This document shows positions 7,791-41,619 of a stretch of 41,619 nucleotides of DNA, in pieces (position 1 is the first letter of the stretch; the number at the start of each line of letters is the position of its first letter). Under the pieces are notes generated by a model that made no database searches, was not told the origin of the DNA, and was given only the letters and a program-made list of their open reading frames with translations. Source of the DNA: a virus; the IMG/VR virus record IMGVR_UViG_3300042197_000592, positions 1 through 41,619 of that record. One strand, given 5' to 3'. The translations under genes were made by a program, and so were the position numbers.

Positions 7791-8348
7791 ATGAAATATA
7801 GAGTATGTGATGCCGTCACATTTGACGGAATGTTCTCTGAGGAAGAGTGCAAAGACATTATTGCTTTGGGTAAAGGAGCAATAATGGAAAAAGCCAAGCT
7901 ACAGCATACCGATGGTAATTGGCGGGTAGGCAGGGGTAGAAATTGCAGTTTGGCTTGGATAGGTAGGGATGTACCAGGGGCTAGCTGGGTGTTTCAGCGG
8001 TTCAGCTACATCTTTAATAAAATTACAGATGAAAATTATGGGTTTCGGATTCGCCCACCAGTAGCTCTTCAGTTTACCGAATACAAAATGTTACAGAACT
8101 ACGATTGGCATTTTGATAATGGAGCGGAAAATGATGTTCGTTTACTTACTTGCGTTGTTAACCTTAAAAACGCTGTTTGGGGAGGGGGAACGCAGATAAA
8201 GGCAAACAACTGGGTAGACGGAGATAAAGCAAATAACATTGGGGCTGGAACTTTCTTCCCTTGCTACTTGCTTCACCGAGCCAAGAAGGTTATTCTGGGT
8301 ACTCGCTACAGCTTGGTCGGCTGGGCGACATCGAGGAGCCTACAATGA
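7791..8348 (+). CDS. 2-oxoglutarate/Fe(II)-dependent oxygenase (185 aa)
   Basis: Predicted dioxygenase of the prolyl-hydroxylase-like (PKHD) type, coupling 2-oxoglutarate decarboxylation to hydroxylation of an unknown substrate. The iron triad is visible: His107 and Asp109 in WHFDNG, and the distal His162 in LLHRAKK, followed by Arg172 (GTRYSLVGW), which should bind the 2-oxoglutarate carboxylate. QFTEYKMLQNYDWHFD fits the second double-stranded-helix strand. AAAGGAG precedes the ATG. It sits between primase-helicase and DNA polymerase, overlapping the latter by four bases. T7 has no such gene, but T4-like and aquatic phages often do. Possible substrates are a DNA base, a nucleotide or a protein. 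Confidence 0.9.
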   Translation: MKYRVCDAVTFDGMFSEEECKDIIALGKGAIMEKAKLQHTDGNWRVGRGRNCSLAWIGRDVPGASWVFQRFSYIFNKITDENYGFRIRPPVALQFTEYKMLQNYDWHFDNGAENDVRLLTCVVNLKNAVWGGGTQIKANNWVDGDKANNIGAGTFFPCYLLHRAKKVILGTRYSLVGWATSRSLQ

Positions 8349-10609: not shown

Positions 10610-11368
10610 ATGAAACCAACATTATTAATAGACGGAGATGTAGTAGCCTACAAAACATCATTCCTATCGGAACAGCCCTTTCATTGGGGTGACGATATGT
10701 GGACTTTGCATTGTGACTTTAAAGAAGTTACAGGAAGAACGTATTCTTTTATTGAAGATTTAAAAAACGAATTGGGTGCAGGGGATGTGATTATTGCGCT
10801 ATCCCATAAAGATAACTTTAGAAAAAAGATTTCCCCAACTTACAAAGCTAATCGTGTTTCTATGAGAAAACCTGTTGTACTCAGCCAGCTTAAAGAGTAT
10901 CTCATATCTGCATTTAAAACTGAAATTTGGGAAAATGCCGAGGCTGATGACGTTATTGGTGTAATGGCTACTGGGGAGTATAAAGATAAATGTATTGCTG
11001 TAAGCATAGACAAAGATTTTAAGACTCTTCCTGTTAAGCAGTATAACCCAGACAAACCAGAAGAAGGGGTTCGAGACATTTCAGATGATGAAGCTGATTA
11101 TTGGTTTATGTATCAGACTTTAACTGGGGACACTACGGACGGATATCCAGGTTGCCCTGGTATCGGTCCAAAGCGAGCCGAAGGCATTCTTGGAGAAATT
11201 GGGCAAGGCTCTTTGCCTTTTTATTGGGAGTGCGTCAAAGCCTGTTTTAAGAAAGCAGGGTTTGGGGAAGAAGAGGCTATTGTTCAAGCCAGACTTGCTC
11301 GGATTCTTAGGAATGGAGAATATGACAAAACAACCAAAACGCCGTTTCTCTGGAAACCGAAATCGTAA
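10610..11368 (+). CDS. 5'-3' exonuclease (T7 gp6-like, 252 aa)
   Basis: FEN/flap-type exonuclease that degrades host DNA and removes primers. Metal-binding aspartates: IDGD near residue 6, EADDVIG near 106, SIDKDFKTLP near 129, and the helix-three-turn-helix region GDTTDGYPGCPGIGPKRA near 168. It is shorter than T7 gp6 (300 aa), but the catalytic core is complete. AAAGGAG precedes the ATG. The next gene starts within its last 47 bases. Confidence 0.93.
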   Translation: MKPTLLIDGDVVAYKTSFLSEQPFHWGDDMWTLHCDFKEVTGRTYSFIEDLKNELGAGDVIIALSHKDNFRKKISPTYKANRVSMRKPVVLSQLKEYLISAFKTEIWENAEADDVIGVMATGEYKDKCIAVSIDKDFKTLPVKQYNPDKPEEGVRDISDDEADYWFMYQTLTGDTTDGYPGCPGIGPKRAEGILGEIGQGSLPFYWECVKACFKKAGFGEEEAIVQARLARILRNGEYDKTTKTPFLWKPKS

Positions 11369-11696
11369 AAAAGTTTACATATCTGGTCCGATGACTGGAT
11401 TACCAAACTTGAATTACGAAGCTTTCCACAAGAAAGCTGAAGTGCTTAGAAAGCAGGGCTATGCTGTGGCTAACCCTGCCGAGCATTTTAATGGGAGACA
11501 GGATTTGGATAGGGAAACCTACTTAAAAGAGGACGTAAAACAGCTAGTGGCTTGCGATTACATTACTTTTTTAGAGGGGTGGAAAAGCAGTAAAGGGGCT
11601 GTTTTGGAATACCTTATTTCTTTAGAGTGTGGTATAAAAGTACTAGAAAAGGAGGAGCATTGTGAAAGATGTGGCAGTAAAAGATTCGGGGCGTAG
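11322..11696 (+). CDS. DUF4406 protein, nucleoside deoxyribosyltransferase-like (124 aa)
   Basis: KVYISGPMTGLPNLNYEAFH and WKSSKGAVLEYLIS are the signatures of the DUF4406 family, which shares the fold of nucleoside 2-deoxyribosyltransferases. It probably acts on nucleotides, but no reaction is established. The frame is open from 11190; the ATG at 11322 is chosen because AGGA lies nine bases before it and the preceding residues have no family match. It ends in a small CERCG motif. It overlaps the exonuclease and the next gene (35 bases). Confidence 0.8.
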   Translation: MTKQPKRRFSGNRNRKKVYISGPMTGLPNLNYEAFHKKAEVLRKQGYAVANPAEHFNGRQDLDRETYLKEDVKQLVACDYITFLEGWKSSKGAVLEYLISLECGIKVLEKEEHCERCGSKRFGA

Positions 11697-12021
11697 GCAA
11701 GAATTTAATACAGGGTCTAGGAGAGACACCAGAGACGGCAAAGGTCGTTTTGATCTTCTTATGCCTCACGCTATCTTCTTGATTGCTAGGCAGTTAGAAG
11801 AAGGTGCTAAAAAATATGGGGATAGGAACTGGGAAAAAGGCCAACCATTATCTAGGTATATGGACTCAGCTTTACGCCATCTGTTTAAACATTTAGAGGG
11901 ACATACTGATGAGCGGCACGATGTAGCCGCCGCTTGGAACTTACTTGCTATGATTGAAACAGCCCATAGTATTGAAACAGGCAAATTGCCCAAAGAGCTA
12001 GATGACCTTTATAACAAATAA
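11662..12021 (+). CDS. dATP/dGTP diphosphohydrolase-like protein (DUF5664 / MazG-like, 119 aa)
   Basis: An all-alpha nucleotide pyrophosphohydrolase-like protein: FDLLMPHAIFLIARQLEEG, YGDRNWEKG, SALRHLFKHLEG and ERHDVAAAWNLLAM carry the Glu, His and Asp residues expected to bind metal. Relatives in phages are annotated as dATP/dGTP diphosphohydrolases; some take part in changing the purine nucleotide pool. GTG start with AAGGAGGAG just upstream. It follows the DUF4406 gene, forming a small nucleotide-metabolism pair at the end of the replication block. No PurZ-like adenylosuccinate synthetase is present, so base Z synthesis is not suggested. Confidence 0.8.
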   Translation: MKDVAVKDSGRRQEFNTGSRRDTRDGKGRFDLLMPHAIFLIARQLEEGAKKYGDRNWEKGQPLSRYMDSALRHLFKHLEGHTDERHDVAAAWNLLAMIETAHSIETGKLPKELDDLYNK

Positions 12022-33991: not shown

Positions 33992-35668
33992 ATGGATATA
34001 GACCCCCGCCTAAAGGATTTTCGTAATTTTTTGTATATTGTCTGGAAGCATCTTCATTTACCAGACCCAACCCCTATTCAATACGATATTGCAAACAAAA
34101 TTCAAAACGGACCAAAACGGCAAGTTGTAGAGGCGTTTCGAGGGGTGGGTAAAAGCTGGATTACTTCTGCCTTTGTTGTTCACCAGTTATTGCTAGACCC
34201 TACCCTTAACTTTCTTGTTGTGTCTGCCAGCAAAAACCGAGCAGACGATTTTTCAACATTTACCCTTCGGCTTATTCAAGAAATACCCATTCTTCAGCAT
34301 CTTATCCCAAAAGAGACACAGCGTAGCTCCAAGATTGCTTTTGACGTTGGACCCGCCCCTGCCGCTCACGCCCCCAGCGTAAAGAGTGTCGGTATTACAG
34401 GACAGATTACTGGAAGCCGTGCAGACGTGGTTATTGCCGATGACGTGGAAAGCTTAAACAACTCCCTAACTCAAGGTATGCGGGACAGGTTGGGTGAAAC
34501 CATCAAGGAGTTTGAGGCCGTTTTAAAGCCAAGCGGACGCATTCTTTTCTTAGGCACTCCGCAGACCGAGATGAGCATTTACAACCAGCTTCCAGAGCGA
34601 GGCTACGAAGTTCAAATATGGCCTTCGAGGTATCCAACAACTGCTCAGATGTCTGGGTATGGAAATCGGCTTGCTCCGACAATTTCAAAAAGTCTTGAGG
34701 ATGATCCTTCATTGGCTGGTAAACCTACTGATCCGTTGCGTTTCAATGAGGACGATCTGCTTGAACGTGAGCTTTCCTACGGCAAAACTGGGTTTGCCTT
34801 GCAGTTTATGTTGGATACTAGGTTATCTGACATAGATCGTTACCCATTAAAGTTATCCGATTTAATTGTAATGGCAATCAACCCCGAACTTGGACCAAGC
34901 AAAGTCGTATGGGCAACCAGCCCCGAACTGGCTTGGAACGACCTGCCTTGCGTTGGTTTGGCTGGGGACAGGTACTACAGACCGATGCAGACCATTGGTG
35001 AATGGACTCCCTACACAGGATCGGTGATGGCTATAGACCCATCTGGCCGAGGCAAGGATGAGACAGGGTATGCAGTTGTCAAGATGCTAAACGGCCAGTT
35101 GTTTTTGACGGCTTCTGGTGGTTTTCGGGAAGGCTACAAAACCGAGAATCTTGAGATTTTGGCAAACGTGGCAAAACAACACAAAGTTAACTACATCATT
35201 GTGGAAGCCAACTTTGGAGACGGAATGTTTAGCCAGTTGCTTAAGCCTGTATTGGGAAAAATCTACCCTTGCACGATTGAAGAGGTACGCCACAGCCAAC
35301 AAAAGGAAAAGCGCATTATAGACACTTTAGAGCCTGTATTAAATCAACACAGGTTAATTATAGATGCCAAGGTCATAGATGCCGATTACAAGTCAACCGC
35401 AAGCCTAGCCAGCGAAATTAAAGCCCAGTATCAGCTATTTTATCAGCTTTCCAGACTCACCAGGGACAGAGGCTCCCTTAGTCGGGATGACCGCCTTGAT
35501 GCCCTTTCTATGGCTGTGGGATACTGGGTGGAGCAAATGGCTAGAGACGTGGATATGGCTGTAAAAGAAGCCTATGCCGAAAAACTGGAAAAGGAGCTAG
35601 ATACTTTTATGGATTCCATTTTTAAGTTGCAAGGGGGCAAAAAGCAGACAACTTGGATGAAAGTATGA
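33992..35668 (+). CDS. Terminase large subunit (T7 gp19-like, 558 aa)
   Basis: Packaging motor and nuclease. ATPase: Walker A-type RGVGKS at 50-55 and Walker B VVIADDVE with Asp150/Asp151, plus the coupling segment ILFLGTPQTE. Nuclease domain: Asp349 in AIDPSGRGKDETG and a later acidic DDRLDALSMAVGYW. Length 558 against T7 586. The family is clear. No ribosome site precedes the ATG, so translation may depend on the leader described upstream. The next gene starts in its stop codon. Confidence 0.97.
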   Translation: MDIDPRLKDFRNFLYIVWKHLHLPDPTPIQYDIANKIQNGPKRQVVEAFRGVGKSWITSAFVVHQLLLDPTLNFLVVSASKNRADDFSTFTLRLIQEIPILQHLIPKETQRSSKIAFDVGPAPAAHAPSVKSVGITGQITGSRADVVIADDVESLNNSLTQGMRDRLGETIKEFEAVLKPSGRILFLGTPQTEMSIYNQLPERGYEVQIWPSRYPTTAQMSGYGNRLAPTISKSLEDDPSLAGKPTDPLRFNEDDLLERELSYGKTGFALQFMLDTRLSDIDRYPLKLSDLIVMAINPELGPSKVVWATSPELAWNDLPCVGLAGDRYYRPMQTIGEWTPYTGSVMAIDPSGRGKDETGYAVVKMLNGQLFLTASGGFREGYKTENLEILANVAKQHKVNYIIVEANFGDGMFSQLLKPVLGKIYPCTIEEVRHSQQKEKRIIDTLEPVLNQHRLIIDAKVIDADYKSTASLASEIKAQYQLFYQLSRLTRDRGSLSRDDRLDALSMAVGYWVEQMARDVDMAVKEAYAEKLEKELDTFMDSIFKLQGGKKQTTWMKV

Positions 35669-36612
35669 GAACACAGGTAGGGGACATCGTACCAAACAGC
35701 CATCGGTCAGTTATGAACAATTTTGAGCAATACAGCACCAAACGCACCCCACGTAAGCGGGTAGAGCCTATGCCGCTACGCCAGCCTGTACAGCAACCTA
35801 CCCAACCCCAGCAACTCACCCAGCCAGAACCCGATGCCAGCCTCTCTATTGAGGATCAAGAGCGTCAACTGGTGTTTAAGACTATGCTAGGGTCTGAAAT
35901 TAAGAATGTGCTTGCCGAGGCTTTAAAAGGGGCAAATTTAGCGCAGGGAACAGTTCAAAACAGCGTTTCAACGGCTGGTAGTGTCCCCACAGCGACCCAA
36001 AGCGCATATACAGGCACAGACCCCCTTTATTTGCGAAATGCTCGCCTTCTGGCTGGAACCAACCAATCCTTAAGCCAGGAACAGCAATTTGCTATGCGTA
36101 AGTTCGTCCAGAACTACCAGACCAATAAAGCTCGCTATGAGGCCGTAGCCCAAAAAACCGATATGCCCCCAGAGCTTATTGCCGCCCTGCATTGGCGGGA
36201 AAGCACAGGCAACTTTGGCACATACCTTCACCAAGGCGACCCGCTAGGCCAACCCGCACGGCGTATCCCCAACAATATCCCTGTATTCAACGATTGGGAA
36301 AGTGCCGCCATCCACGCCATAAACCTTAAAAAAGGCATTCAGCAACGTTTTGGTATTACCAAGGCCACAGGCCAAAGCGACCCTGCCGCCCTGTCCACTT
36401 ACGCCGAGTACTACAACGGCAAAGGCTACTTTAACAAAAGCCGTCCCTCTCCCTACGTCTTTAGCGGTACTTCCAGCTACCAATCGGGCAAGTACGTGGC
36501 AGACGGCAAGTACGATCCAAATGCTGTTGACAGGCAACTTGGGGTTTATAGTATGCTAAGTGATCTGTGGAGCCTCAATAGCCCCAAACCAGCCGTTGCT
36601 GGCTCCCAGTAA
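35665..36612 (+). CDS. Lysozyme/transglycosylase-like protein (315 aa)
   Basis: The C-terminal half (from about residue 160) has a lysozyme-like fold signature: PPELIAALHWRESTGNFGTY, with the likely catalytic Glu179, then HQGDPLGQPAR and a helical domain ending in VDRQLGVYSMLSDLW. The N-terminal third is proline- and glutamine-rich (about residues 35-55) and lacks a signal peptide or membrane segment. It may be the endolysin, or a virion-borne enzyme that replaces the missing transglycosylase of gp16. ATG 35665 overlaps the terminase stop (ATGA); a TTG at 35653 is an in-frame alternative. Confidence 0.8.
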   Translation: MRTQVGDIVPNSHRSVMNNFEQYSTKRTPRKRVEPMPLRQPVQQPTQPQQLTQPEPDASLSIEDQERQLVFKTMLGSEIKNVLAEALKGANLAQGTVQNSVSTAGSVPTATQSAYTGTDPLYLRNARLLAGTNQSLSQEQQFAMRKFVQNYQTNKARYEAVAQKTDMPPELIAALHWRESTGNFGTYLHQGDPLGQPARRIPNNIPVFNDWESAAIHAINLKKGIQQRFGITKATGQSDPAALSTYAEYYNGKGYFNKSRPSPYVFSGTSSYQSGKYVADGKYDPNAVDRQLGVYSMLSDLWSLNSPKPAVAGSQ

Positions 36613-36624
36613 AAGGAGCTAAAA

Positions 36625-36828
36625 ATGAAAAAGTATATTATATTGGCGGTACTGATGCTTACCCCCACCCTCAACGCACAGGAGACGATGCGAGCCAACT
36701 GGGTGGGGAACCTACAGGACGAATCGGGTACAATTCGGTATTTTAAAGGTAGCATCCGAGGCGTGGGCTGGATTAGCGCAGACAATGTTAGCGGTATGGA
36801 AAAGTACACGCCTAACCCGCTTCGGTAA
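36625..36828 (+). CDS. Small secreted protein with signal peptide (67 aa)
   Basis: AAAAGGAG precedes the ATG. The N-terminus MKKYIILAVLMLTPTLNAQE is a typical Sec signal with a probable cut after LNA, leaving about 49 residues in the periplasm (GSIRGVGWISADNVSGM...). No cysteine or lipobox is present. A role in lysis or superinfection exclusion is possible by location, but no family was recognised. Confidence 0.7.
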   Translation: MKKYIILAVLMLTPTLNAQETMRANWVGNLQDESGTIRYFKGSIRGVGWISADNVSGMEKYTPNPLR

Positions 36829-36837
36829 GAAAGCCTG

Positions 36838-37113
36838 TTGAAATTTTCAGATAACTTTCAAGGTCGCTCTCGCGAACTGAAAGTCTACAACGGCAGGGTC
36901 AAGATATACGTGGACGGCATCGTTATGTTCACGTTTAACCAAATAGATTTTAAAGGCTGGTACGCCTATAAGGACGATCACTCCCTTTACGGAATAGACA
37001 TTTACCTGGTCGAATCCAGCGGCGGGTCGGGCGGGTCAACCATTATGCAAATTTCCTTTAAGACTAAGGAGAATTGGCTAGGGGTTCTGGAGCTTTTAGA
37101 CAGGTACTTATAA
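36838..37113 (+). CDS. Hypothetical protein at the end of the late region (91 aa)
   Basis: Starts at TTG nine bases after the previous stop, with only AAGAAAG as a possible ribosome site. The product is beta-rich (VKIYVDGIVMFTFNQIDF, SLYGIDIYLVES) with a flexible SSGGSGGS linker. It is the last gene before the long non-coding tract. Function unknown. Confidence 0.6.
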   Translation: MKFSDNFQGRSRELKVYNGRVKIYVDGIVMFTFNQIDFKGWYAYKDDHSLYGIDIYLVESSGGSGGSTIMQISFKTKENWLGVLELLDRYL

Positions 37114-37147
37114 CCCCCATTCCCCTTCGGGGAGACCGACAATCCAA

Positions 37148-37175
37148 TCAATAGGTTGTCCCCTCTGATAATACT
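37148..37175. repeat. 28-base repeat, copy in the non-coding tract
   Basis: Same element as at 14442-14469, with one mismatch. It lies shortly after the last late gene. Here it is not in a reading frame, so its conservation with the scaffold copy is not explained by protein coding. Confidence 0.85.
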
Positions 37176-37395
37176 TAAGGTATGCTTTGGGTATCCCAAG
37201 GTTGTTAATCCTTTTTATTATCCTTTGTACTCTTTTGTGTCTTTTTACACCTAATTTAGTTTGTGAGGGAGGTCTAAATTTAGAGAGTCCAAGGAGGGAG
37301 GTTTTACCTTTAGCTTACCTTTAGATAGCTTTGTAAAAGGCTATTAAAGGATGTAAAGGAGTAAAGAAATAAGATAAACCTTAATTAAACTTTAA

Positions 37396-37412
37396 GTTAT
37401 CCTTTCGATAAC
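37396..37412. promoter_or_regulatory. Short perfect hairpin in the genome-end tract
   Basis: GTTATC pairs with GATAAC around a CTTTC loop. A second weak stem AGCC/GGCT follows at 37422-37435. There is no T run. Possibly a control or packaging element before the small gene at 37502. Confidence 0.45.
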
Positions 37413-37501
37413 CGACTAAATAGCCTCTAGCGGCTTGTAGGGGGTGTGGAAAGATAAGGCTTAATGAATGCTTTTTGTAACCAAAAGGAGTAACTCATTA
37501 A

Positions 37502-37681
37502 ATGAAAAACAATGAAAGTATTGGGACAAAGGTTGCCGAATCAAATCGCCAGCTTATGCAAAGGGAAAAACTTAAGAAGCTTTTGGGTTTGTCCAAGCTT
37601 TATCCCGAAAAGGGCTGGGAAGAGGAAATTAGGAAACAACCAGTTTATACTACAGGTGTGTCTTTTAGCGGTGGCCAATAG
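37502..37681 (+). CDS. Hypothetical small protein (59 aa)
   Basis: The ATG lies 10-11 bases after AAAGGAG. The product (MKNNESIGTKVAESNRQLMQ...) is basic and mostly helical, with a LLGLSKLYPEKGWEEE segment and a glycine/serine-rich end. It stands alone between two non-coding tracts, perhaps the first gene of an early transcript. A longer overlapping frame from 37512 is judged a shadow because it lacks the ribosome site. Confidence 0.55.
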   Translation: MKNNESIGTKVAESNRQLMQREKLKKLLGLSKLYPEKGWEEEIRKQPVYTTGVSFSGGQ

Positions 37682-38279
37682 TATCAATGTTTTCAATCTT
37701 TACACGTCTTAAACAACGTGTTAAAATTTCCCAAATATTTTGGCAAAAAAATCTGAGCGAGTGTACATCGTAGAATTTTCCTGGTTCCCCCCATACCCCC
37801 TTATTTGCTCCTAACTTTAACGATAAAGCGGGGGTCGCCCCATTCACTATCTGACCTAACTCGTTGACATTCAACAACTAGAAACGGACTCCAAATCCCT
37901 TTTTCTCCGTTGCCTAAAACTTTATTGGTTTATGTCTTTTACCCCCTGCAAAAAGACCAGACCCAGAGCAACTAGAAAAGCAGGGGCAACCCTCAAAACA
38001 CGACCCAGACCGCCCACAACTATCATCCGACTATCACCAAACCCAAACCCCCACGCAATCGAGCGGAAAAGCCCCTAGAAACGCTTAAGGGGTCGAATAG
38101 GTAGAGGACAGCGGAGAGCGGAAAAACTTAAGAAAACCTAATGAGCGAGCAATTAAAAACTAATACCCTATCACCTGGGCAAAAAGACTTGCTCTTTTTT
38201 CATTCTGTAGTAAATTGAAAACACAAGGGCAGAAGCAGAGGAGCCGAACCCTTGCAACGTTAGCAGAGGAGAAAAAAAA
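37682..38279. other. Non-coding tract, C/A-rich and G-poor in part
   Basis: No convincing gene in 598 bases. It contains a 7-base inverted repeat CCCCTGC (37943-37949) / GCAGGGG (37980-37986), a strongly C/A-rich, G-poor stretch about 37985-38055 whose complement reads G5-TTT-G3-TTT-G2, a CCCCT/AGGGG stem near 38080, and a terminator-like hairpin at 38181. The 3' end has AGAGGAG before the amidoligase. A weak promoter TTGCTC-16-TAAATT (38189-38216) could start that operon. Confidence 0.45.
38181..38200. terminator. A/T-rich terminator-like hairpin, possibly bidirectional
   Basis: AAAAAGA at 38181-38187 pairs with TCTTTTT at 38193-38199 around CTTGC, with a T run on the 3' side and an A run on the 5' side. 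It would isolate the amidoligase operon from upstream transcription, but the stem is weak. Confidence 0.45.
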
Positions 38280-39278
38280 ATGAGACTACTCGACCACGCA
38301 CTAGAAAAGGTAGGATTCAACCCCGAACGAATCCCGCTGAACCGCCACGACATCCACGCCATTCGACATTATTTGAAGAGAGGTGGAAATCTGGACTTAA
38401 ACACTACAGGACAAAAAATAGGTTTGGAAAACCTGCAAAGGCTGAAAGAAGCCAGAAGCCTTTTTAATATGGTCACAAGGCGGCTTTCTCTTGTTCCAGA
38501 GGATCGGTTGACGATGCGATGCCCCGAAAACTTCCGCACCCTCGGAAGCTTGCGGACGCTTTTCGGTATCCGTACGCATTTTGGAAAACTGGTAGGGGTG
38601 GAAATTGAGTTTTTCCACAACGAATCCCTTCGAAACCTTCATCCCATCGTCTCACTCGGACAGGATGGGAGCATTCGCACCCCAGACGATGAGCGGGACG
38701 ATGACGGCGAGATCGTCACACGTTGGCGAGCGTCCGAGGCACGTCTTGTATATGTCAAAGGTATTTCAGAAAACCGCTTGGAAAACCTATGCCGTCAAAT
38801 CCGAAACGCTGGCGGGCTTGTCAACGATTCTTGCGGGCTTCACGTTCATTTTGACCAGCGGGACGTGACAAGGCAGGGGGCGTATGCCAGAGCCATCCGT
38901 CTTACTCACTCACTATCATTCCTAAAATTGATGGTTCCCAAGTCTCGGACGAAAAACAACACGTACTGCAAGATCAATCCAGCGGGAACGCTCAATTCCT
39001 CGGACAGATACTACGCCGTAAATTGGTGCAGTTGGCTTGAACATAAAACAATCGAGGTGCGCTTGCACAGCGGGACAACATCAGCGGAGAAGATCAAAAA
39101 CTGGGTCGAGATTCTGGACGCTTGCCAGCGTCACACCATCCCAGACTTCACCGCTTTTATGGCATCCCCGCACGTTTCGATGAAAGCGAAGGTATGGGCA
39201 ATCAATCGCATTCGTAAATTCAACCCAGAAAGTCTGGATGGATTCGAGGGGACGCACCACGAAGGGTCAGAACAATAA
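38280..39278 (+). CDS. Amidoligase-family enzyme (332 aa)
   Basis: Predicted amidoligase of the glutamine-synthetase-like (COOH-NH2 ligase) fold, which joins a carboxyl to an amine using ATP. Family features: VGVEIEFF with Glu108/Glu110, SLGQDGSI, the conserved SCGLHVHFDQRDV with His188/His190, MVPKSRTKNNTYCK, YYAVNWCSWLEHKTIEVRLHSGT and EKIKNWVEILDAC. The N-terminal 95 residues are a separate helical part. AGAGGAG precedes the ATG. The gene is GC-richer and uses more C-ending codons than the phage core, suggesting separate origin. Its neighbour is a class II glutamine amidotransferase, the known partner of such enzymes. The substrate is unknown. Confidence 0.88.
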   Translation: MRLLDHALEKVGFNPERIPLNRHDIHAIRHYLKRGGNLDLNTTGQKIGLENLQRLKEARSLFNMVTRRLSLVPEDRLTMRCPENFRTLGSLRTLFGIRTHFGKLVGVEIEFFHNESLRNLHPIVSLGQDGSIRTPDDERDDDGEIVTRWRASEARLVYVKGISENRLENLCRQIRNAGGLVNDSCGLHVHFDQRDVTRQGAYARAIRLTHSLSFLKLMVPKSRTKNNTYCKINPAGTLNSSDRYYAVNWCSWLEHKTIEVRLHSGTTSAEKIKNWVEILDACQRHTIPDFTAFMASPHVSMKAKVWAINRIRKFNPESLDGFEGTHHEGSEQ

Positions 39279-39299
39279 ACCAGAAAGGAAAAAAACAAT

Positions 39300-40112
39300 A
39301 TGTGCCTTGCAATCGTAAAAAAAGCTAACGCAACACTCAACCTTGACGAGATGAAGGAAGCATCCATCAGCAACCCGCACGGCTTCGGGGTCGCTTGGAC
39401 GGACGGCAAACGTCTTCGATGTTTTCGGACGATGAAAAAAACGGAGCTTTTTGACCGCCTCAAAAAGTTGACCGCCTACCCTGCTATTGTTCACTTCCGC
39501 TTCGCCACTCACGGAACGAAAACGGAGGAGAATTGTCACCCATTCAGAATTAATAAAAGCACGGCGATGATTCATAATGGCATCATAGATATAAAATGCC
39601 GAGACGCTTCACGCTCGGACACTTGGCACTTTGTCGAAGACATAGTGAAACCATTAGAGGCGATGAGTCACGGACAATTCATCTATTCCCCAGAGGGTCA
39701 AGAGTTGCTCGCAAAGTATGTCGGCGGCGGGTCGAAACTCTGTTTCCTAAACTGGAAGGGTGAAGTTGTTATCGTCAACGAATCGGCGGGACATTGGCGG
39801 GAAAACGTTTGGTACTCGAATTGTTCCTATGAAAAGCGGAGCATCGTCAGCGTACCCGCAAAGGGTTTCGCCTATTACGATGACGATTCAGACTATTACG
39901 GCGAGTATGCCCCTAGTTATTTGAACTACAGAAAGCACAAGCGGAGAACGTGGAGAGATTCAGCACCCGCCAAGATGGGCGAGATTCAGCGGGAACTATA
40001 CGGACAAGAGGCGACACTAGCAGAGCAAGCCGAAAAACACATCGAGGAACAAACGATTCGAGAATATGAAAGCCAAAACTTTCACCAGACGGAAGGCGGG
40101 GGACTTCTATGA
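39300..40112 (+). CDS. Class II glutamine amidotransferase-like protein (270 aa)
   Basis: Ntn-hydrolase of the GATase II type that would release ammonia from glutamine. After Met removal Cys2 (MCLAIVKK) is the nucleophile. Further motifs: HGFGVAW, the AIVHFRFATHGTKTEENCHPF block, and AMIHNGI, all classical for the glutaminase pocket. The last 90 residues (SDYYGEYAPSYLNYRKHKRR...) are charged and unlike the family core. It lies 21 bases after the amidoligase with AAAGGA before the ATG, so the two are co-transcribed. Ammonia may be passed to the amidoligase or, more simply, the domain may cut an amide made by it. Confidence 0.9.
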   Translation: MCLAIVKKANATLNLDEMKEASISNPHGFGVAWTDGKRLRCFRTMKKTELFDRLKKLTAYPAIVHFRFATHGTKTEENCHPFRINKSTAMIHNGIIDIKCRDASRSDTWHFVEDIVKPLEAMSHGQFIYSPEGQELLAKYVGGGSKLCFLNWKGEVVIVNESAGHWRENVWYSNCSYEKRSIVSVPAKGFAYYDDDSDYYGEYAPSYLNYRKHKRRTWRDSAPAKMGEIQRELYGQEATLAEQAEKHIEEQTIREYESQNFHQTEGGGLL

Positions 40113-40189
40113 TTCCCGAATACCTTTTCTTCCTAGTCAACGTCACAGCGTGGGTAATTCTCGCAGTCGGCTTTTTTAACAACCGATAG
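40109..40189 (+). CDS. Tiny membrane peptide of the amidoligase cassette (26 aa)
   Basis: The ATG overlaps the amidotransferase stop (ATGA). The 26-residue product is nearly all hydrophobic (IPEYLFFLVNVTAWVILAVGFF) with a basic end, NNR, so it should sit in the inner membrane. It is placed just before a strong terminator, so it belongs to this operon. It may tether or report the enzymatic activity at the membrane, but no evidence beyond position exists. Confidence 0.5.
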   Translation: MIPEYLFFLVNVTAWVILAVGFFNNR

Positions 40190-40207
40190 AACCAGCGGGA
40201 AACGAAG

Positions 40208-40241
40208 GCGGGGGGTGGGCGAAAGTCTGCCCCCCGCTTTT
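40208..40241 (+). terminator. Strong Rho-independent terminator
   Basis: A 13-pair stem (40208-40220 with 40225-40237, including GCGGGGGG/CCCCCCGC and three G-U pairs) closes a GAAA tetraloop and is followed by four T. It ends the amidoligase operon and separates it from the early control region. Confidence 0.92.
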
Positions 40242-40440
40242 CATTTGCTCCCAGACCGCCGCCGCCTACGGCCTCCCCTCCGCAAACGGAAACGCCACCC
40301 CACCCCTAGATGACCAGCACCACAAGCGGTTGTGGTCGAAAAACGCCACCCGCCCTCTACTTTACGAAGTAAGAAGAATAAAAAATTACATACTCTGAAA
40401 GGAAGAAAAAAAATAATATATCAAAAGATAATAGATATAT

Positions 40441-40475
40441 ATGATAGTAATATATGATAGTGAAATAATGATAGT
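40441..40475. repeat. Three ATGATAGT iterons
   Basis: Exact copies begin at 40441, 40454 and 40468 (13 and 14 bases apart) in an AT-rich stretch, just before two TTACGTG repeats. Regular spacing near 1.3 helical turns suggests binding of a phage or host protein at an operator or origin. Confidence 0.65.
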
Positions 40476-40611
40476 GGCATTGATTACGTGATGCTGGCGT
40501 TACGTGCTTGCGGCTGGAACCCCTGGGGATCAAAGCAAATGACAAGGCATACCCACAAAGGGATATGTTCTTAACCTACAAAATAAATTTGATAAAAATA
40601 AAAAAATCTTG

Positions 40612-40647
40612 TTGACATACGTGTAGCTGTAGATAAACATATACACG
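40612..40647 (+). promoter_or_regulatory. Candidate early host-type promoter with inverted repeat
   Basis: Perfect -35 TTGACA at 40612-40617, preceded by A/T tracts. The -10 is not clean (AAACAT at a 17-base spacing, GATAAA at 14). CGTGTA (40620-40625) and TACACG (40642-40647) form an inverted repeat spanning the promoter, like an operator. Confidence 0.55.
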
Positions 40648-40721
40648 ATTCGATGCGGGAAAGATTGGCAGAGGAGCTAATTAATCCGCAACAAACGCAA
40701 AGAATCAGAGGAGTCAAAAAA

Positions 40722-41360
40722 ATGCCTAATCATTGTGCAAATTCTGTTTATCTTCCTGTCGAAGATAACGCACGTAAGGTACTTGAGCCGTACATAAGTC
40801 TCGATGACAACGAGGAGATTTTGGATTTCAACAAGATCATCCCGATGCCTTCGGAACTGCTGGCTGAAACAACTCAATACTCAACCGATGAGAAAGAAAA
40901 CAAACGCATCGAGTCGGAGAATCTCAAAAAGTACGGATTCAAAAACTGGTACGATTGGAGATTAGCCAACTGGGGAACCAAGTGGAATAGCTACTGGATG
41001 CACACCGATGGCGAGTGCATCCGATTCAGCACGGCTTGGTCTCCTCCGACACAAGTGATATGTGCGCTTGCCAAGCTATTGGGCAAGCCTCTTCGCCTCA
41101 CGTACACCGATGAAGCCTATATGTTTTGGGGTGAGACGCTGATTGACGAGCTAGGAAACAACGTGGAAGACAACTGCTACGATGACCTAGACAGCACCCC
41201 CAGCGAACTGGCTGACGAACTTGGTGTTCGTGGTGGGCTTGGTTTGGATGAGGATGATGAAGCTCCCGCCGAGGATGAGTCGAAGCTACGCACCGAGGCA
41301 GAGCAGATATTGATGGAAGACGAAACGTATCGGAACCTAATGAAAGGAATGAAACAATGA
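40722..41360 (+). CDS. DUF1281-type ferredoxin-like-fold protein (212 aa)
   Basis: MPNHCANSVYL, LDFNKIIPMPSEL, GFKNWYDWRLANWGTKWN and FSTAWSPPTQVI are the signature of the DUF1281 family (YubB ferredoxin-like), frequent on plasmids and phages, with no established activity. The C-terminus is acidic (LDEDDEAPAEDESK). Start ATG 40722 has AGAGGAG; the in-frame 40653 has none. As the first gene behind the early promoter it would be made at once on entry, when host-takeover or anti-defence proteins act; that role is inference. Its stop overlaps the next start (ATGA). Confidence 0.82.
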   Translation: MPNHCANSVYLPVEDNARKVLEPYISLDDNEEILDFNKIIPMPSELLAETTQYSTDEKENKRIESENLKKYGFKNWYDWRLANWGTKWNSYWMHTDGECIRFSTAWSPPTQVICALAKLLGKPLRLTYTDEAYMFWGETLIDELGNNVEDNCYDDLDSTPSELADELGVRGGLGLDEDDEAPAEDESKLRTEAEQILMEDETYRNLMKGMKQ

Positions 41361-41619
41361 ACATCGCCCTTACTGAAAAGCTAGGACACAGAATGACTGA
41401 AGCTCTTAAGGAGCTTACCGACATTGACGTTGAGCAACGTTATCGGGATATGTTGGACGAAATCTACCCAGCCGTGAAAATTGGCTATAGCTCATATATG
41501 CCGTCCGAGATTGTTGAAAAGCTTTCTCCCACCGATTTTCGGTGCGGGGTGGCCGAATATATTAGCTCGGAAGATGCGCTGGTTGAGATTGACGGCAAAT
41601 ATTACGATGCGGACGACAT
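41357..41619 (+). CDS. Hypothetical early protein, N-terminal part (continues at 1-271)
   Basis: The ATG overlaps the preceding stop (ATGA). The frame is open to the window end and continues at base 2 of the window, for a total of 114 residues. The first 24 residues (MNIALTEKLGHRMTEALKEL...) are helical. This copy reads AEYISSED where the left copy reads ADYISSED. Function unknown. Confidence 0.75.
   Translation, partial: MNIALTEKLGHRMTEALKELTDIDVEQRYRDMLDEIYPAVKIGYSSYMPSEIVEKLSPTDFRCGVAEYISSEDALVEIDGKYYDADD
41431..41619. repeat. Terminal direct repeat, right copy
   Basis: Identical to 1-189 except A at 41557 instead of T at 127. The unique genome length is therefore 41430 bases if the contig is circularised here. 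Confidence 0.9.

Follow-up and report, generated by a model that had tools for sequence, protein, structure and literature searches.

An amidoligase and class II glutamine amidotransferase pair in a swapped early island of a T7-like phage: the reduced form of a phage module already known

Introduction

The locus described here raises the question of what a T7-like phage would gain from an amidoligase (AL2) and a class II glutamine amidotransferase (GATase) encoded side by side. The window, meaning the whole analysed stretch of 41,619 nucleotides (IMG/VR record IMGVR_UViG_3300042197_000592), carries both genes close to its right end. The pair is real and intact, and nothing about its kind is unusual: it belongs, in reduced form, to a phage module already known, and was perhaps put together from two lineages. 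AL2 and GATase pairs are widespread in phages, and no demonstrated substrate, product, phenotype or biochemical test for an AL2 of such kind was found in the accessible literature. The two-gene T7-like version, which comes without GGCT, would offer a compact construct for learning the module's action.

The two enzymes

The cassette contains two full-length frames in the same orientation:

38280-39278, plus strand: Amidoligase_2 (AL2) open reading frame, 332 amino acids, SD sequence AGAGGAG
39300-40112, plus strand: class II GATase open reading frame, 270 amino acids, SD sequence AAAGGA

The AL2 frame matches PF12224 in the Pfam profile search with 60.6 bits (E 2.9e-16), well above the curated cut-off of 22, and two PHROG amidoligase families with E values of 9e-21 and 2e-6. 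The signature residues of Amidoligase_2, GxExE, GxHVH, RY and TxExR, are present at positions 106-110, 186-190, 243-244 and 257-261. In a 49-row alignment, the motifs G106xE108xE110, C185GxH188VH190, R243Y244, N248 and T257xE259xR261 are invariant or nearly so, and E108, E110, D129, S131, E153, G186, H188, H190, R223, R243, Y244, N248, E259, R261 and W275 are found in all 49 sequences. The protein is divided into a variable helical N-terminus (residues 1-100), modelled with low confidence, and a catalytic domain of the glutamine-synthetase fold (about 101-320), across which the AlphaFold2 model has a pLDDT of about 85-98. Foldseek ranks glutamine synthetases and YbdK highest among the PDB matches of this model (best E 4.6e-5, probability 1.0), although the TM-scores for the whole model are low (0.3-0.4); a sequence-profile search of the PDB with AL2 returned no match. 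The predicted fold is of the glutamine synthetase/COOH-NH2-ligase type.

The GATase frame matches PF13230 (GATase_4) with 25.1 bits (E 1e-5), above the cut-off of 23, and scores below the cut-off of 27 against PF13522 (GATase_6; 19.6 bits, E 9.5e-4). It retains the cysteine nucleophile after the initial methionine (C2), the glutamine-binding arginine (R67) and the oxyanion Asn-Gly (N93-G94). The motifs Cys2, H65FR67, T70HG72, H80PF82 and H92NG94 are invariant or nearly so in a 48-row alignment, where C2, N25, G30, H65, F66, R67, T70, G72, H80, P81, F82, H92, N93, G94, D107, S173 and N174 do not vary. The class II/Ntn-hydrolase domain comprises residues 1-180 and is modelled by AlphaFold2 with a pLDDT of 96-98, followed by a poorly predicted tail. 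The GlmS glutaminase domain (1xff) is the best Foldseek match of the model (E 6.7e-7), with EgtC next, and the sequence profile matched GlmS and PurF in the PDB. The predicted fold is that of an Ntn-hydrolase.

Both alignments were kept narrow because broader ones were too poorly conserved, and their members share about 21-38% identity with the window proteins. Scans with each protein alone brought up hardly any close relatives, and a DNA-level search of phages gave no match. With conserved residues retained and folds predicted, both enzymes look intact. The original prediction had placed an amidoligase and a class II GATase with intact motifs, among them Cys2 and the HFRFATHG...CHPF block, at this locus, and both identities hold; the two outcomes it had named as speaking against them, a failed amidoligase family match and the loss of catalytic residues, were checked, and neither occurred.

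Flanks and composition of the cassette

Three further elements were recognised around the two genes:

38177-38194, plus strand: weak terminator-like hairpin with a T6 run, upstream of the cassette, a pattern match only
40109-40189, plus strand: possible 26-amino-acid membrane peptide, its start overlapping the GATase stop (ATGA)
40204-40241, plus strand: intrinsic-terminator-like hairpin (17 pairs), closed by a GAAA loop and followed by a U-rich tail

The downstream hairpin is more stable than its shuffles (z -4.15; no shuffle was equally stable). A terminator with a GAAA loop had been described earlier at the end of the cassette, and this part stands, with 17 pairs counted in place of the 13 then given. 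Matches of the upstream hairpin type were nearly as numerous in shuffled sequences.

The 26-amino-acid frame was also part of the original prediction, as a membrane peptide belonging to the operon. It is hydrophobic (KD 2.31) and overlaps the GATase stop, and it has no family match in the Pfam search. Small hydrophobic frames follow 20 of 158 related GATases and 35 of 932 control frames. This enrichment is only modest and the sequences are unrelated, so the peptide was rejected as a conserved third gene and is left out of the module as defined here.

The higher GC content reported for the region was confirmed: the cassette has 49.7%, against a mean of 43.8% for equal-sized windows, and exceeds 99.5% of them. 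A repeated phage-promoter-like motif with at least 18 of 22 positions was looked for and not found, sigma-70-like sites were no commoner than in shuffles, and tRNA and Rfam searches yielded no tRNA and no Rfam family.

Genome setting and the variable island

The ends of the record, 1-189 and 41431-41619, overlap by 189 bp, of which 188 are identical with one mismatch. IMG/VR reportedly assigns such ends to the linear class, but the overlap is best explained by a complete phage genome whose assembly closes into a circle. On the circular map, the end overlap brings the cassette into the early region, where it precedes the integrase (989) and RNA polymerase (2143) genes on the same strand by about 2 to 3.5 kb. 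The order across the junction is the cassette, a DUF1281_C gene, a 114-amino-acid frame that spans the junction, the integrase and the RNA polymerase. The earlier statement that the cassette lies outside the core T7 gene order is right, and its position can be specified as early.

The T7-like nature of the phage was borne out as well. The backbone includes a T7-type RNA polymerase, a Gp2.5-like SSB, primase/helicase, DNA polymerase and exonuclease, as well as a capsid assembly protein, the major head protein, tail tubular protein B, an internal virion protein and the terminase, and it is accompanied by the integrase gene. Neither PF12224 nor a related GATase was found in any of 27 records retrieved through the major head protein, many of which are fragments.

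One close relative is near-complete, G006 (IMGVR_UViG_3300032225_000838), whose head protein is 78% identical to that of the window. Almost every gene of the window has its counterpart there, apart from the window region from about 36625 to 271. Two features of this region are needed for the comparison:

37502-37681, plus strand: 59-amino-acid open reading frame that marks the left border of the swapped island and apparently has a homologue in G006
40653-41360, plus strand: DUF1281_C (Api92-like) protein of the variable island, PF18406 at 31.5 bits

At the place of the island, G006 (L096 15960-20000) encodes DUF932 and GP88 proteins instead of AL2, GATase and DUF1281_C. These are flanked by the apparent homologue of the 59-amino-acid frame (L096 19339-19512, minus strand; shared GWEE...K...TTGVS motif, recognised by eye) and by a homologue of the window frame at 285-560. 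The 59-amino-acid frame has no family match, and a DUF1281_C homologue was looked for in G006, G003, G002 and G005 and not found. The early island, 36625-41619 together with 1-271, is hypervariable, and AL2 and GATase are swappable cargo within it.

Several genes elsewhere in the window are conserved in G006. A 2OG-Fe(II) oxygenase (PF13640) is encoded at 7791-8348 between primase/helicase and DNA polymerase. At 11190-12021, a DUF4406 (nucleoside 2-deoxyribosyltransferase-like) frame adjoins the N-terminal domain of a dATP/dGTP diphosphohydrolase. A 319-amino-acid protein (35653-36612), which has no Pfam or PHROG match, overlaps the end of the terminase gene.

Linkage of the two genes in other phages

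A gene-neighbourhood survey, proposed in the original prediction, was centred on GATases related to that of the window. An AL2 frame adjoins the GATase, within 300 bp and on the same strand, in 102 of 112 sampled loci (71 of 79 viral loci and 31 of 33 from bacterial genomes). The bacterial loci are nearly all from Bacteroidales, and some appear prophage-like by eye. AL2 comes first in 93 of the 102 linked loci, with a median gap of 27 bp; the window pair has this order and a gap of 21 bases. Starting from AL2, a related GATase is also present in 44 of 80 viral loci of its relatives. An ATP-grasp-type ligase accompanies 24 of the 79 viral GATase loci. In Arthrobacter phage Kovu, a Bacillus phage and a cassette of a Stenotrophomonas phage, GGCT is found next to AL2 or close by. 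Annotated pairs occur in Pseudomonas, Pseudoalteromonas, OM43 and Arthrobacter phages and in the T7-like ctgrD200. In Bacteroides sp. An322 (L295 4133-4998), AL2 is represented by two adjacent frames, a probable break, beside a full-looking GATase.

The pair is an already known module of many phages, going back to the prediction of Iyer et al. in 2009, as relayed in later papers (PMC5498523, PMC3890496). The earlier remark that such pairs had been predicted from genomes before agrees with the literature on phage cassettes. The cassette of RIO-1/PSA-HP1, phiEco32 and the LUZ24-like phages resembles the window in combining an amidoligase and a class II GATase in the early region, but can comprise as many as seven genes, with GGCT, ATP-grasp and a second ligase among them, whereas the window set consists of AL2 and GATase only. 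Larger gene sets were described in UFV-P2 and other LUZ24-like phages (PMC3890496) and in PSA-HP1 (PMC5498523). Pfam searches of the window record gave no match to PF06094 or PF13772 (GGCT/AIG2); they replaced a GGCT profile built from three diverse seeds, which had given only one match. No ATP-grasp ligase or second COOH-NH2 ligase was recognised among the window frames scanned. The missing GGCT makes the window set a reduced relative of the podoviral cassette rather than a full one.

Among the closest known settings is that of the podovirus ctgrD200 (MW202733), in which the same AL2-then-GATase order is found early, near an integrase and a T7-like RNA polymerase. The T7-like setting of the window pair is therefore not a first, and with ctgrD200 and the podoviral cassette on record its novelty had been overrated. 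The RNA polymerase and GATase of ctgrD200 are 33% and 31% identical to those of the window, but its AL2 is different, with 518 amino acids, a cysteine-rich N-terminus and only weak similarity to the window AL2 (39.7 bits). In the OM43 phages MEP401 and MEP402 (PMC10580990), AL2 also adjoins a GATase that is about 33-35% identical to that of the window, but AL2 has about 550 amino acids and the phages, Zobellviridae, possess a different backbone. Kovu likewise has AL2 next to GATase II, but with GGCT upstream (GGCT-AL2-GATase) and a GATase only 21% identical to that of the window.

Apparently conflicting lineages of the two proteins

In 150 other AL2-GATase pairs, the similarities of the two proteins correlate (Spearman 0.40, reached by none of 200 permutations), and on average 6 of the 10 nearest neighbours are common to both. 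In the window pair the similarities run in opposite directions (-0.78, lower than in any of the 150 others), and none of 20 neighbours is shared. The window AL2 is nearest to the L183/L193 group, but the GATases of that group are distant from the window's; the window GATase is nearest to the L104/L113/ctgrD200 group, in which it is the AL2s that are distant. Joining the window protein to the other group was rejected by AU tests in each tree (p about 0.0006 in both), in a set where loci were picked by similarity to either window protein, groups were named after the scores had been seen, and the window AL2 branch is long. The direct scores are independent of the sampling cut, though an unsampled lineage with both proteins could exist: the AL2s of the 20 best GATase kin score about 22 bits or less, and the GATases of the 13 best AL2 kin about 21 or less. 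L104, L106, L107, L108 and L120 are also discordant, which makes the window an extreme case but not the only one. Judged by these comparisons, the window AL2 and GATase seem to come from different lineages, which is a modestly new point. At L193 (AL2 448-1602), an AL2 near that of the window neighbours an extremely divergent GATase (branch 2.1), possibly a second partner exchange.

The conflict between lineages argues against a specialised, obligate complex of AL2 and GATase. The apparent partner exchange also provides a testable prediction on whether the two enzymes must form a complex.

Proposed function and alternative explanations

The function considered moderately probable is that of an early accessory module of two genes, in which AL2 would act as ligase and the GATase as donor or hydrolase on an amide of gamma-glutamyl type, formed on a carboxylate of the envelope or of a protein. 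AL2, as a predicted carboxylate-amine ligase of the glutamine-synthetase fold, would form an amide bond at the expense of ATP, probably of the gamma-glutamyl type. The GATase-fold enzyme may supply ammonia from glutamine to AL2 or hydrolyse the same kind of amide, so that both would act in a common pathway. The position of the genes points to early expression. If the larger podoviral cassette is taken as a guide, the pair probably alters peptides of the host envelope (peptidoglycan stem), or else a host protein, early in infection, which would favour takeover or exclude other phages.

The envelope as substrate is a prediction from the literature. The seven-gene peptidoglycan modification cassette of podoviruses was hypothesised to block superinfection (PMC5498523), the predicted genes of this kind in phage PSA-HP1 are expressed immediately (PMC7082346), and the idea of Iyer et al. 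(2009) for phiEco32 is repeated in PMC10580990. The missing GGCT counts against the proposed function, as a part of the published cassette is thereby missing. GGCT in kindred cassettes and the EgtC fold match favour gamma-glutamyl chemistry, without settling it.

The same chemistry could serve small molecules. AL2 would then make a gamma-glutamyl conjugate of an amine or thiol that the GATase hydrolyses, with a metabolic role in nitrogen or redox supply and not in the envelope. The models are EgtA/EgtC in ergothioneine synthesis and PuuA/PuuD in polyamine use, where a glutamine-synthetase-like ligase is paired with a GATase-fold enzyme on gamma-glutamyl amides; they differ from the window pair in operon and subfamily, and their substrates are known. 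The modelled GATase has EgtC as one of its best fold matches, but GlmS-type glutaminases match at least as well. GGCT, which cleaves gamma-glutamyl amides, recurs in related cassettes, but thiol or polyamine genes were not recognised among the window frames scanned. A phage gene set that comprises AL2, GATase, glutathione synthase and GGCT was proposed to act in nitrogen metabolism (PMC10945688); the growth effect in that paper was obtained with whole phage and not with those genes. A small-molecule role is rather unlikely.

Another explanation, rather doubtful, takes AL2 and GATase as exchangeable parts that this phage combined from two lineages. The two enzymes would then act on a common intermediate, either diffusible or exposed, and not as a channelling complex that evolved together; the swapping of the early island would mark the pair as a device of host takeover or counter-defence, not as a cell-wall set.

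A direct role in counter-defence, with the pair modifying a host defence or regulatory protein or a nucleotide signal early in infection, is slightly more doubtful still. T7-like phages usually carry their host-takeover genes in such an early position, and the pair shares its swapped island with DUF1281_C, replaced in G006 by DUF932 and GP88; however, no defence target is known and island position alone is weak evidence.

Hypermodification of the phage DNA, with the GATase as amide donor, is very improbable: glutamine amidotransferase domains are used in some DNA-modification pathways, but deazaguanine and thymidine-hypermodification enzymes are absent among the window genes scanned, and the pair is linked elsewhere to ligases and GGCT. 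The reading of the genes as chance frames or decaying, functionless cargo is disfavoured and hardly credible, since the GC content unlike the rest of the genome, by which the segment may be recently acquired, is opposed by full-length frames, ribosome-binding sites, a terminator and residues conserved at 21-38% identity.
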